Positions 15,892 through 31,838 of a stretch of DNA of 32,784 bases are shown here, piece by piece. Source of the stretch: Desulfuromonadales bacterium (GTDB taxonomy: Bacteria; Desulfobacterota; JAENJC01); assembly GCA_919902985.1 (NCBI GenBank), contig CAKKSC010000083.1, forward strand, positions 1 through 32,784, in the 5' to 3' direction. Below the pieces are notes generated by a model, which saw nothing but the letters and a program-made list of their open reading frames with translations, had not been told where the DNA came from and did not search any database. Both the position numbers and the translations under genes were made by a program. Position 1 is the first letter of the stretch. The number at the start of each line of letters is the position of its first letter.

Positions 15892-18645
15892 ATGGGAAAG
15901 CTCAATATAAAGATAAACGGCAGGGAGATTGAGGCGGAGGAAGGGAGCACAATCCTTGACGTAGCCAAGACTAACGGTATCTATATCCCAACCCTCTGTC
16001 ACCACCCACAGCTCTCAGTTCAGGGCGCATGCCGCATCTGCATGGTAGAGGTTAAGGGTCTTCCCAAGCCAGTCACCTCCTGCACAACCCCTGTAACCAA
16101 GGATATGGATATCCAGACCGACACACCTGTTGTAATTAAACAGAGGGAGACTGTGCTTGAGCTACTCCTTTCCGACCATCCCCTGGAGTGCCCGACATGC
16201 GATGCAGGGGGCCAGTGCAAGCTCCAGGACCTGACCCATGATTACAAGATAAAGGGAAATCGCTTCGAAGGAGAGAAGAGGAAGGTCCCTGTCGAAGAGG
16301 TAAACCCATTTATCAGAAGGGATTATCAACGCTGCATTCAATGCAGCCGCTGCATAAGGGTCTGCGATGAGGTAAGGGGAATAGGGGCGATCCAGTATGC
16401 GAAGAGGGGATTTTATCAGAAGGTCTCGACCTGCGCAGACAAGGTATTGGACTGCATCTTCTGCGGCTCATGCGTCCAGCAGTGCCCGGTCGGGGCCCTC
16501 ACAGAAAAGCCGTCTAAGTTTAAGTACAGGCCATGGGAGACAAAGCAGGTTGAGACAACCTGCGGATATTGCGGTGTTGGATGCTCCCTTACCCTTCATA
16601 CAAAGAACAACGAGATAGTTAAGGTTACCTCCAGGGATGACACTCTGAACAAGGGGCATCTCTGCGTGAAGGGAAGATATGGGTATGAGTTTGTCAAGAG
16701 CGATAAGAGACTAACCACCCCTTTAATCAGGAAGGACGGCAAGCTCACTCCCGCTTCCTGGGAAGAGGCGCTTTCATACACAGCCAAAAGGTTCAAGGAG
16801 ATAAAGGAGAAGCACGGCCCAGATTCCTTGGGTGGTTTCTCTTCAGCGAAATGCACCAACGAGGAGAACTATCTATTCCAGAAGTTCGTCAGGGTCAACT
16901 TCGAGACCAATAATTTAGACCACTGCGCGCGCCTCTGACACAGCGCCACCGTGGCCAGTTTGGCCACAGCGATAGGTAGCGGTGCAATGAGCAATTCACT
17001 CCACGACCTGGATGAGGCGGATCTCTTCCTTGTCACCGGTTCCAATACAACCGAGGCCCATCCGATCATAGGAATGCAGATCTGGCAGGCTGTGAGACAC
17101 AAGAATAAAAAGCTCATAGTGATAGACCCGAGGAAGATAGAGCTTACAAAATATGCAGCCATGCACCTCAGGCAGAGGCCTGGGACAGATGTGGCCGTCT
17201 ACAACGGCCTGGCAAGGATCATAATAGAGGAAGGGCTTGCCGACCTCGACTTCATAAGAGATAGGACCGATGGGTTTGAAGAGGCAAAAGAGGTCATAAT
17301 GAAGTATACCCCTGAGGTCGTGGAGAAGATATCAGGGATACCGAAGGAACAGCTTATAGAGGCTGCCAGGATGTACGGTAAGGCTGAAAGGGCCTCAATA
17401 TACTGGGCCATGGGCAGTACCCAGCACATAAACGGCGTTCACGGGGTCCATTCCATTGTCAATCTGGCGATGCTGACCGGAAATATAGGCAAACCAGGGA
17501 CAGGGGTCAACCCGCTGAGGGGGCAGAACAACGTTCAGGGTGCATGCGATATGGGATGCCTGCCAAACCAGTTCCCAGGATATAAGCCCGTGAATGTGCC
17601 TGAAAACGTAGAAAGGGTCGAGAAGGTCTGGGGGGTAAAGGTCCCGGCAAAGCCAGGGCTGACCCTTACTGATATGGTAAATTCCATGGGCACGGAAAGG
17701 GGCATTAAAGGGCTATATATCATGGGTGAGAACCCAATGATGAGCGACCCCGACCTGAACCATGCAAAAGAGGCATTTGAGTCCCTCGAATTCCTGGTGG
17801 TCCAGGATATATTCCTGACTGAAACTGCGGAACTGGCCCATGTAGTGTTCCCTGCCACTTCCTTTGCAGAGAAGGAGGGTACGTTTACCAACACGGAGAG
17901 GAGGATCCAGAGGGTAAGGAAGGCCGTCAAACCGCCCGGTGATGCATGGGAGGATACCAAGATAATCTGCTCTCTTTCAAAGGAGATGGGATATCCGATG
18001 GAATACCCTTCCGCCTCAAAGGTAATGGATGAGCTTGCATCGGTAACCCCGATTTATGAGTGTGTCTCCTATGAGTATCTGGACAAGGGGGTTGCTGTAC
18101 ACTGGCCGTGTAACAGCTGCTCCATTGATCGTACTTCATGCGGCACCCTTATAATGGGGACTCCAGTACTTCACGAGGAAAAGTTTACGAGGGGGGCAGG
18201 CAAGTTCCTGGCGTTCGAATTCCAACCCCCCACGGAGTGGCCTGATGACGAATACCCCCTGATACTTACGACAGGAAGAAACCTCTGGCACTGGCACGGA
18301 GGGAGCCAGACGAGAAAGGTAAGTTCTCTAAACGAGAGGTCTCCGGAACCTTATATGGAGCTCAATGCCGCTGATGCAAAGAAGATGGGCATAAAGAACA
18401 GTGAAGAGGTAGAAGTCACGTCCAAGAGAGGTGGGATAACCTTGAAGGCGGTTATAAGCGACAGGCCTACACCTGGAGTAGTATTTATTCCATGGCATTA
18501 CAAGGAGGCAGCCGCAAATATTCTAACTATCAACGCCCTTGACCCGCAAGCAAAGATACCGGAGTACAAGGTTTGTGCAGTAAGGGTTGAAAAGACAGGT
18601 GGTGGACAGAAGGAACCAAACCGATACTCGCATTACCCAGGGTAA
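15892..18645 (+). CDS. fdhF: Formate dehydrogenase catalytic (alpha) subunit, selenocysteine-containing
   Basis: Oxidises formate to CO2, or the reverse, at a Mo/W bis-pterin site. The reading frame is 917 residues if the TGA at 16936-16938 is decoded as selenocysteine 349, in the context DHCARL-U-HSATVASLA; Sec/Cys followed by His is the active-site pattern of this family. Domains in order: [2Fe-2S] ferredoxin with C36, C47, C50, C64; a NuoG-like H96/C100/C103/C109 cluster; two [4Fe-4S] clusters (C148-C158, C188-C198); the catalytic-domain [4Fe-4S] (C224, C227, C231, C258); the molybdopterin domain; and the C-terminal molydopterin-dinucleotide-binding domain near LILTTGRNLWHWH. SD GGAGG at 15883-15887 fixes ATG 15892. 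No signal peptide is seen, so it is likely cytoplasmic. No diaphorase (NuoE/F-like) gene adjoins, so its electron partner must be encoded elsewhere. A plain gene caller would split it in two. Confidence 0.93.
16936..16981 (+). promoter_or_regulatory. Selenocysteine UGA codon and SECIS-like hairpin
   Basis: The in-frame TGA at 16936-16938 is followed 12 bases later by a perfect stem GTGGCC (16951-16956) / GGCCAC (16962-16967) with loop AGTTT. A lower stem CGCCACC (16944-16950) with GGTAGCG (16975-16981) is possible, with one mismatch and a 7-base bulge. Bacterial SECIS elements lie right after the UGA, have a short apical stem, and expose a G (usually GU) in the loop, as here. SelB would bind it to deliver Sec-tRNA. 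Confidence 0.85.
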
Positions 18646-21854: not shown

Positions 21855-22307
21855 CTATTTTTTCCTCATTTTTGACAGAACAATCCCCAGTTGTTTGTTG
21901 ATCGGGTTTTCCCTGGAGAGAATGGGAATTGCCGGACGCTTCCTTGCGCCAAACTTGTACAACTCTTTGAGAATTGCCTTGTTTTCGCCGTCCAGTTCAA
22001 GGCCTGCCTCAAGAGTTTCTATGGCCTTGACCTTGTTCCCCCTTAATTTATAAACCTCGGCAAGGTTGATGTAATACTGAGTGACGTAAAAATCCTTTTT
22101 GACGGCCATTTTACATAGCTCCTCTGCCTTTGCCATGTCCCATTTGGACCGTGCCATTGCAACGCCAAGCCAGGAGTAACAAGCTGAACCCTTATGCCCC
22201 TGGTTTATGACTTGCTCAAGACATTCTATGGCTTCAGCAGGGTAACCACGCTTGATAAGTGCCAATCCCTTATCAAACAACCTTGTTGTTTCGTCGTTCG
22301 TTTCCAT
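21855..22307 (-). CDS. TPR-repeat protein, probably riboswitch-controlled
   Basis: The 150-residue protein starts at ATG 22307 after AAGGAGGAGCT; there is no signal peptide. It has about three tetratricopeptide repeats (for example GLALIKRGYPAEAIECLEQV and INLAEVYKLRGNKVKAIETL), so it is probably a protein-protein interaction adaptor. The tail is basic (KQLGIVLSKMRKK). Upstream lie a promoter, a GEMM-type riboswitch and a terminator, so expression is likely set by a cyclic dinucleotide. The partner is unknown. Confidence 0.85.
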   Translation of the reverse strand: METNDETTRLFDKGLALIKRGYPAEAIECLEQVINQGHKGSACYSWLGVAMARSKWDMAKAEELCKMAVKKDFYVTQYYINLAEVYKLRGNKVKAIETLEAGLELDGENKAILKELYKFGARKRPAIPILSRENPINKQLGIVLSKMRKK

Positions 22308-22379
22308 AGCTCCTCCTTTTCCATCTGAATTTATGTCTTTAATTGACATTACCTCTTATATTATTTCAGCGCCGAATAA

Positions 22380-22412
22380 TAAAAAAAGCCGCCAAAGATA
22401 TCTTTGGCGGCT
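22380..22412 (-). terminator. Intrinsic terminator in the TPR gene leader
   Basis: The 26-base perfect palindrome AGCCGCCAAAGAT / ATCTTTGGCGGCT (22387-22412) is followed on the minus strand by a run of T (22387 down to 22380). The 5' arm overlaps the 3' end of the riboswitch aptamer at 22406-22412. This is a standard expression platform in which ligand binding and terminator formation compete. It lies 73 bases upstream of the TPR start codon. Confidence 0.9.
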
Positions 22413-22490
22413 CGACTGGCATGTCCTTAAAGGATTTAGCCTCGGGGCTCTGCGACCTTCGGTTTCCCGAAGCTTGCTCTGAGCAAAGTA
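22406..22490 (-). promoter_or_regulatory. GEMM-I riboswitch (cyclic di-GMP-I type)
   Basis: Read on the minus strand, the element has the order of conserved parts of GEMM-I: CAGAGCAAG; the hairpin CTTCGG-GAAA-CCGAAG (22457-22472) with a GNRA tetraloop; GTCGCAGAGCC (22446-22456), matching the conserved GACGCAAAGCC; GAGGCTAAA; a second short hairpin TCC-TTTAA-GGA (22424-22434); and ATGCCAGTCGAGCCGCC at the 3' end. The tetraloop and CTAA receptor are both present. The ligand is probably c-di-GMP; the related GEMM-Ib class binds cGAMP, and I cannot decide between them without the model. Confidence 0.8.
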
Positions 22491-22513
22491 CAATATTTAA
22501 CTTTTCTTGATTA

Positions 22514-22542
22514 AGTTTAACACCTACCGGGTTTTATTTCAA
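22514..22542 (-). promoter_or_regulatory. Predicted sigma-70 promoter of the riboswitch-TPR unit
   Basis: On the minus strand TTGAAA (22537-22542) and TAAACT (22514-22519) are separated by exactly 17 bases. Start of transcription would be near 22506, about 15-20 bases before the aptamer. The -10 matches the consensus in 4 of 6 positions, the -35 in 5 of 6. Confidence 0.6.
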
Positions 22543-30972: not shown

Positions 30973-31413
30973 TTAAGATTCAAAATAGCCAGGTACAAGA
31001 AACTTCTCCACTTCGTTTACATACTCAGGATAGAGTTCTTCGGCCATTCTGACGGCGCCAAGGACCATTGAGTGTTCCAGCATGTCATATTCATGCACAA
31101 GCCTGTTCCTGAGACCTGCAGATGGCGCAAGCTTTTCCGATAGACCGGCAGAGATGATATTTAGCTCCCCTGCCGTTATAAAACTCTCGTAGTAATCATC
31201 AGGCGCAGGATTTCCACTCTGCACTATCGCATGGGTGTTTATATATATAGCCGCTTCTGTTAATTCCTGCAAAAGCCTCTCCGTGGCCTTTCTTTTGTAT
31301 ATGTCCTCAATATATTCATCTTTCGTCATGCATGATATAGGTTTTAGGGCATTGAGATTTTCTATAATGACGACAAGTTTTCTCCTGATAATATCTTTGT
31401 CTAAAGGGCTCAT
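30973..31413 (-). CDS. hepT: HepT-like ribonuclease toxin (DUF86)
   Basis: The 146-residue product is a helical HEPN nuclease with the RX4HXY motif at residues 102-109 (R102, H107, Y109 in LRNRLVHEYD). R and H are the catalytic residues; the tyrosine is the target of MntA adenylylation in the characterised system. It follows mntA with a 4-base overlap, the typical antitoxin-toxin order. It lies 74 bases upstream of the DUF1015 gene. Confidence 0.9.
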   Translation of the reverse strand: MSPLDKDIIRRKLVVIIENLNALKPISCMTKDEYIEDIYKRKATERLLQELTEAAIYINTHAIVQSGNPAPDDYYESFITAGELNIISAGLSEKLAPSAGLRNRLVHEYDMLEHSMVLGAVRMAEELYPEYVNEVEKFLVPGYFES

Positions 31414-31838
31414 GTTAGACCTCTTGCAGCAAGAAAAGAGTTAATTACAGACTTCTGTGCCTCACGTAACTTCTTCGTATCCGCGTATATCCTGAAGGCA
31501 AGGGAATAAAACTGATTAAATACGCCAGCCTCCCGTTCATAGATCAGTGTGCCGTTTTTTGCAGCAGAGAACTTTAACAGCGGACTGGCACGACTTAAAT
31601 CCACTACATCGACATTGTTTGTATGCAGGAGTTTTATAACTTTATTAGTGAGGGCCAGTATATCAACAGGTCTGTCGAAGAGAAACGCAACATCAATATC
31701 GCTCTGCTTGTGCAGCTTACCGGATGCATGCGACCCGAAAAGGAGGATGAGCTGGAGCCCCTCTTCTGTGAAAAGAGGGCTCAACCTCTCCCTGATCGCT
31801 TCTATAGAAATACCTGCCGTGCTCTTTTTCGTAAACAT
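31410..31838 (-). CDS. mntA: MntA-type antitoxin, minimal nucleotidyltransferase
   Basis: The 142-residue protein has the minimal nucleotidyltransferase motif GSHASGKLHKQSDIDV (G35-S36 ... D47, D49; GSx10DxD) and a third acidic residue around D77-D80 (VDVVD). MntA adds AMP to the HepT tyrosine and so silences the toxin. All catalytic residues are intact. Start ATG 31838 has only a weak SD. It is divergent from an XRE-like remnant, 45 bases away. Confidence 0.9.
   Translation of the reverse strand: MFTKKSTAGISIEAIRERLSPLFTEEGLQLILLFGSHASGKLHKQSDIDVAFLFDRPVDILALTNKVIKLLHTNNVDVVDLSRASPLLKFSAAKNGTLIYEREAGVFNQFYSLAFRIYADTKKLREAQKSVINSFLAARGLT

Follow-up and report, generated by a model that had tools for sequence, protein, structure and literature searches.

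A GEMM-I riboswitch with an A20/G48:C90 pocket ahead of a small TPR protein gene: a candidate 3',3'-cGAMP ON switch

We identified a GEMM-I riboswitch on the minus strand of the window (the whole 32,784-nt stretch of DNA analysed here), directly upstream of a gene for a small TPR protein. In the reading that we favour, with a probability of about 0.68, this leader is a transcriptional ON switch of the A20 subtype that senses 3',3'-cGAMP and drives a TPR adaptor; what we infer is the ligand, the direction of switching and what the TPR protein does, while the aptamer, the shared strand, the pocket bases, the conservation and the recurrent pairing can be read from sequence. The riboswitch is real and its architecture is ordinary; it varies a riboswitch kind already known and does not represent a new class. 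What is out of the ordinary at this locus is the A20/G48:C90 pocket together with the repeated pairing with one TPR family. It is in Geobacter that cGAMP signalling by way of GEMM-Ib riboswitches has been worked out, and most of the targets named there are genes for extracellular electron transfer, pili and lipoproteins. Here A20 occurs naturally in a P2 that is otherwise canonical and goes together with a changed 48:90 pair, which makes the aptamer a ready test of the choice between cGAMP and c-di-GMP. A TPR family brought repeatedly under riboswitches of this sort is a concrete candidate for a protein through which the signal acts inside the cell. The features of the locus are the following:

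22514-22542, minus strand: promoter-like TTGAAA-17-TAAACT, its second hexamer preceded by TG (stretch conserved in the sister species)
22403-22488, minus strand: GEMM-I (c-di-GMP-I, RF01051) aptamer of the A20 subtype (60.1-bit match)
22484-22488, minus strand: P1 5' strand CUUUG, pairing with CAAAG at 22406-22402
22478, minus strand: A equivalent to Vc2 position 20 and 4YAZ A14, the ligand selectivity base (alignment; 4YAZ numbering from PMC6274999)
22450, minus strand: G equivalent to position 48 (4YAZ A42), with its partner C90 at 22409 (aptamer alignment)
22406-22409, minus strand: CGCC (positions 90-93), also within the terminator 5' arm (aptamer alignment)
22407, minus strand: C92 equivalent (4YAZ C75), which forms the Watson-Crick pair with the ligand (PMC6274999 numbering)
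22386-22413, minus strand: intrinsic terminator hairpin (expression platform), its 5' arm overlapping the 3' strand of P1 (hairpin and fold)
22381-22387, minus strand: terminator U tract (sequence)
22312-22318, minus strand: Shine-Dalgarno AAGGAGG (sequence)
21855-22307, minus strand: small TPR protein of 150 aa with the conserved C-terminal motif GxRkxPxxxxLSRxNPxNKxxG (open reading frame, Pfam, alignment and AlphaFold)

An earlier note, made from the letters of the window, had read the leader as GEMM-I, and the covariance check with RF01051 bears this out: the match at 22488-22403 scores 60.1 bits (gathering cut-off 35; E 1.5e-9 over the whole window), covers the model end to end (1-87 of 87) and is the sole Rfam match in the window. 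The GAAA tetraloop, GTCGCAGAGCC, CTAA and the 3' arm lie where that note had placed them, and the core of the family is present, namely GAAA, CTAA, CGCAG with A47, CGCC with C92 and the P1/P2/P3 junction. The related model c-di-GMP-I-GGC (RF03167) belongs to the same Rfam clan, but the window matches RF01051 instead. Matches to RF03167 were seen at three loci (L143, L144 and L145) of G080, the genome of a relative.

The terminator at 22413-22386 is a 12-bp hairpin (7 GC) followed by a 7-T tract, and it overlaps the last 11 bases of the aptamer, as the earlier note had proposed in taking the end of the aptamer for the terminator 5' arm. One strand, GCCGCCAAAG, serves twice: paired with CUUUG (22488-22484) it completes P1, and it is also the terminator 5' arm. 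The same sharing, with the aptamer 3' end serving as terminator 5' arm, recurs at each of the 18 related loci examined; at 15 of them P1 pairs over 5 bp or more in the same register, with CAAAG/CUUUG replaced by CAGAG/CUCUG in G045 and by CAGAG/UUCUG in G080, and the best P1 falls in another register at three (one G400 locus, G402 and G403). The predicted folding energy of the leader is -46.8 kcal/mol with the terminator and -24.9 kcal/mol with P1 forced. Given this gap of about 22 kcal/mol, termination is the predicted default, and the ligand would therefore have to act during transcription, as in a kinetic switch, a point that counts against our reading.

In the pilM cGAMP ON switch, the C that pairs with the ligand is sequestered in the terminator, so that terminator and aptamer are alternatives (PMC9262584). 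The window terminator likewise excludes P1 and takes up the C92 equivalent, and by likeness to pilM the leader is a putative ON switch. GEMM-I switches of the opposite sign exist (Cd1, PMC9262584), and ligand binding might accordingly favour termination here; however, the terminator dismantles P1 and captures the C92 equivalent, making the bound aptamer and the terminator mutually exclusive as in pilM and unlike Cd1, and we regard an OFF switch as very improbable. In the preferred ON switch, GCCGCCAAAG would pair with CUUUGGCGGC when the ligand is absent, and transcription would halt at the U tract ahead of the TPR gene. With the ligand present, the P2/P3 aptamer would dock, C92 would pair with the ligand and CUUUG would hold CAAAG in P1, so that the terminator would be blocked and the TPR protein made.

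The promoter suggested by the earlier note is, as a motif by itself, no better than chance (3 found, 2.6 expected), whereas the sister species retains the stretch that carries it and not the DNA upstream of that stretch: similarity to the leader of the sister species (G001) begins at about 22570, the DNA further upstream is not conserved, and the upstream gene is different. The leader and the TPR gene would fit a transcription unit of their own. The ATG at 22307, served by AAGGAGG, yields the 150-aa product; an in-frame ATG further upstream, at 22349, is out of frame in the sister species, and 22307, the start already chosen in the earlier note, is therefore the likely one. With an ABC transporter operon upstream in the same orientation, the leader might be no switch at all, and instead a decayed aptamer beside the terminator of that operon. 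This is barely credible, given that the sister species keeps the leader despite a different upstream gene, that the 60-bit match comes with an intact pocket, and that the Shine-Dalgarno sequence and the start codon come after the terminator.

The choice of ligand turns on the pocket. In 4YAZ, A14 corresponds to position 20, C15:G40 to 21:46, A41 to 47, A42 and U73 (the P3 base) to 48:90, and C75 to 92 (PMC6274999). By this numbering, checked against A14, the window aptamer has the A of GEMM-Ib, and not G, at Vc2 position 20 (Rfam model position 11). An A-to-G change of nucleotide 20 turns a Geobacter cGAMP aptamer into a c-di-GMP aptamer (PMC6456294), and the G20A form of the c-di-GMP-I aptamer (4YB1) binds cGAMP (listed in PMC7288161). 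Because position 20 is A, cGAMP is more likely than c-di-GMP as the ligand of the window aptamer. The remainder of the pocket (G21:C46, C22:G45, G48:C90) is unlike that of the solved Geobacter cGAMP aptamer, and the Geobacter-type P2 base, C21:G46 and U22:G45, is absent, which counts against cGAMP. We found no statement that cGAMP binding needs these two pairs, which occur in characterised Geobacter members; nor did we find the sequence of the Geobacter cGAMP aptamer in the open literature.

Compared with Geobacter GEMM-Ib riboswitches (pgcA GSU1761, pilM, PDB 4YAZ), the window shares the RF01051 fold, A20, a terminator that takes in the 3' strand of P1 together with the C92 equivalent, a layout that implies ON logic, and a genome with Hypr-type GGDEF proteins. 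It differs in the P2 base (G21:C46 and C22:G45 in place of C21:G46 and U22:G45), in the P3 base (G48:C90 in place of A48:U90) and in its target, a TPR protein where the best-known Geobacter targets are cytochrome, pilus and lipoprotein genes. With GEMM-Ia of the Vc2 type (c-di-GMP-I) it has in common the scaffold, the canonical P2 base, A47 and C92, and it departs from that type in A20 and G48:C90 (G20 and A48:U90 in Vc2). The placement of A20 within a canonical P2 is that of 4YB1, which is engineered whereas the window aptamer is natural, a likeness judged at position 20 and in P2.

We compared the pockets of 180 distinct GEMM-I aptamers from the phylum and four Geobacteraceae genomes, aligned with a covariance model. 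They sort into aptamers with G20 and either G21:C46 or C21:G46, those with A20 and C21:G46 (Geobacter type, 24) and those with A20 and G21:C46 (33), and 29 of the last 33, the window included, carry G48:C90. Every G48 aptamer has C90 (31/31) and 29 of the 31, across several families, have A20; among the A48 aptamers, U90 is found in 120 of 149. The 48:90 pair thus changes on both sides in the alignment, and the change accompanies A20, as an association and not a count of events, because related sequences were tallied separately. Since part of the sample was chosen with a model of the window's subtype, these fractions are biased; in the part chosen blind to the pocket, G48:C90 is found in 11 of 13 A20/G21:C46 aptamers and G48 in no other aptamer. 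On this comparison, the A20/G21:C46/G48:C90 pocket is a recurrent subtype (29 of 180 aptamers). We found no earlier report of the A20/G48:C90 pocket in the openly readable literature. A strict coupling of G48 to A20, true for the first 138 aptamers, was abandoned after two G20/G48 aptamers appeared (L255 and L257, in G200 and G286); both have a very long P3, lie ahead of predicted secreted proteins and are possible intermediates between subtypes.

Both GEMM-I copies of the window's own genome, and their closest relatives, carry A20. The second and only other copy (L002, C4:47951-48036) has the same A20/G48 pocket and a terminator, lies 47 bases ahead of a gene for a 103-aa HTH_25 protein and is conserved in G002 (L140). 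Elsewhere, aptamers of the A20/G48 subtype precede similar proteins with an N-terminal hydrophobic stretch, in tandem at L346 (G404:C31) and singly at L149 (G045:C248), a second recurrent target of the subtype. At L139 of the sister species (G001:C36, 1031-1314), tandem A20/C21:G46 aptamers of the Geobacter type precede a lipoprotein-like gene, and this species therefore carries two A20 subtypes.

The own genome (2.13 Mb in 88 contigs) encodes 14 GGDEF domains. Using the features of Hypr proteins (cGAMP synthases) described for GGDEF proteins (PMC6456294), and placing the cross-dimer site by a distance of 44 residues, we found the Hypr signature in three proteins (L037, L039 and L044), which have Ser at the selectivity site, GGDEF and not GGEEF, and a non-Arg cross-dimer residue; a fourth GGDEF protein (L041) has Asn. 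Synthesis of cGAMP in this genome is thus plausible from sequence, and the signature is consistent with driving the window switch without being diagnostic. Relatives with and without GEMM-I encode Hypr-type proteins, which weighs somewhat against our reading, and Hypr-type GGDEF was rejected as a predictor of GEMM-I after it was also seen in G056, G401 and G018, where no GEMM-I was found.

The same ON switch might instead respond physiologically to c-di-GMP, or to c-di-GMP and cGAMP together, through a promiscuous A20 aptamer with a canonical P2. The G21:C46 and C22:G45 pairs would suit this, as would the canonical D/GGEEF cyclases that the genome also encodes; omcST, a Geobacter riboswitch of this kind, reportedly responds to both messengers (PMC6456294), and position 20 is a selectivity factor, not a hard filter (PMC9262584). 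Against it stand A20 in both own-genome copies and in 29 of the 31 G48 aptamers across several families, and the binding of cGAMP by the G20A aptamer 4YB1. We consider c-di-GMP or dual sensing unlikely, though with a real chance of being correct, and continue to favour cGAMP.

The earlier note had also named a 150-residue TPR protein as the controlled gene, and Pfam agrees (TPR_2, 40 bits; cut-off 27). The AlphaFold model (mean pLDDT 90) consists of seven TPR helices, a linker bearing the motif and a C-terminal helix. The family occurs in the source phylum, Nitrospirota, Geobacteraceae and others, and the 18 members in one alignment all share G120, R122, L130, R132, P135, N137, K138 and G141 of the C-terminal motif, which follows the repeats. 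The riboswitch-controlled members from family f44 share 24-32% identity with the window protein, and the profile of the TPR family scores them at 80-138 bits; they keep only the core LxRxxxxNxxxG, and most have lost the P and K of the motif. By these alignments the window protein is no isolated oddity: it belongs to a conserved family in which GEMM-I controls further members as well. Fold and PDB sequence searches returned generic TPR domains, and the motif falls after the part alignable to solved TPR structures. MamA and other small TPR proteins share a TPR solenoid of similar size; identity with MamA was rejected, as the protein scores 29.9 bits against the NCBIfam equivalog cut-off of 200 and its conserved C-terminal motif extends beyond the aligned part. 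Among the neighbours of the TPR genes we found no shared partner, the contexts varying (coaX, ruvB, tRNA and others). In the proposed mechanism, the protein would be a soluble three-repeat adaptor that, with its C-terminal linker motif and helix, relays the cGAMP signal to a partner.

The pairing of GEMM-I with this TPR family recurs. It is conserved in the sister species though the upstream gene differs, and it is found at seven further loci in five genomes of family f44 (G344, G150, G399, G404, and G400 with three): a model for the window's subtype, run over 395 genomes of the phylum, yielded G344 and G150, and a search of family f44 added G399, G404 and the three G400 cassettes. At each recurrent locus the TPR gene is the first after the terminator. 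A search near members of the TPR family (the surroundings of 20 members in related genomes, the regions upstream of another 40 and 43 loci in named genomes) revealed no GEMM-I other than those of the sister species, G344 and G150; most members lack an upstream GEMM-I, a further point against our reading. The G400 cassettes lie within about 3 kb (L341, G400:C149, 2595-5716). One of them has A20/G48 and two have G20/A48, which also counts against cGAMP, so the ligand may have changed within this one genome, as if among paralogous switches.

In a tree built from 36 members of the family, the proteins under riboswitch control form two separate, well-supported groups, and a single clade was rejected (p 0.013); the link between riboswitch and TPR protein therefore probably arose twice, two recruitments or transfer of the leader being the simplest readings. 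By our own rough calculation, chance would place a GEMM-I and a TPR gene together (one GEMM-I and two such genes in 2.3 Mb, at most 200 bases apart and correct in order and strand) in about 1 in 10,000 genomes. Since the pairing recurs in a distant lineage, the TPR protein is probably a genuine target of a cyclic-dinucleotide signal, and the recurrence in a second family strengthens the hint, given in the earlier note, of a cyclic-dinucleotide output with an as yet unnamed effector. It is distinctly unlikely that the aptamer works but controls the TPR gene only incidentally, the protein playing no part in such output: the scarcity of GEMM-I among family members would allow this, but the pairing has come up in two families that sit on separate branches, one genome has three cassettes, and the TPR gene is first past the terminator every time. 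More tentatively, and at somewhat less than even odds, the A20/G21:C46/G48:C90 aptamers would be a separate subtype sensing cGAMP or another cyclic dinucleotide, with the TPR family as its dedicated intracellular output recruited independently in two lineages, an output that would stand alongside the known cytochromes and pili of Geobacter. In the openly readable literature we found no earlier report of the pairing of GEMM-I with this TPR family.

Elsewhere in the window, two same-frame open reading frames on the plus strand (15892-18645), split by one TGA (codon 349), join into the alpha subunit of a formate dehydrogenase; it contains DHCARLUHSATVA and, as judged from this sequence, is very likely a selenocysteine enzyme. 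The own genome has a tRNA-Sec (75 bits, above the Rfam cut-off). On the minus strand (30973-31838), a HepT-like ribonuclease gene adjoins a nucleotidyltransferase gene in what looks like a HepT/MNT toxin-antitoxin pair.
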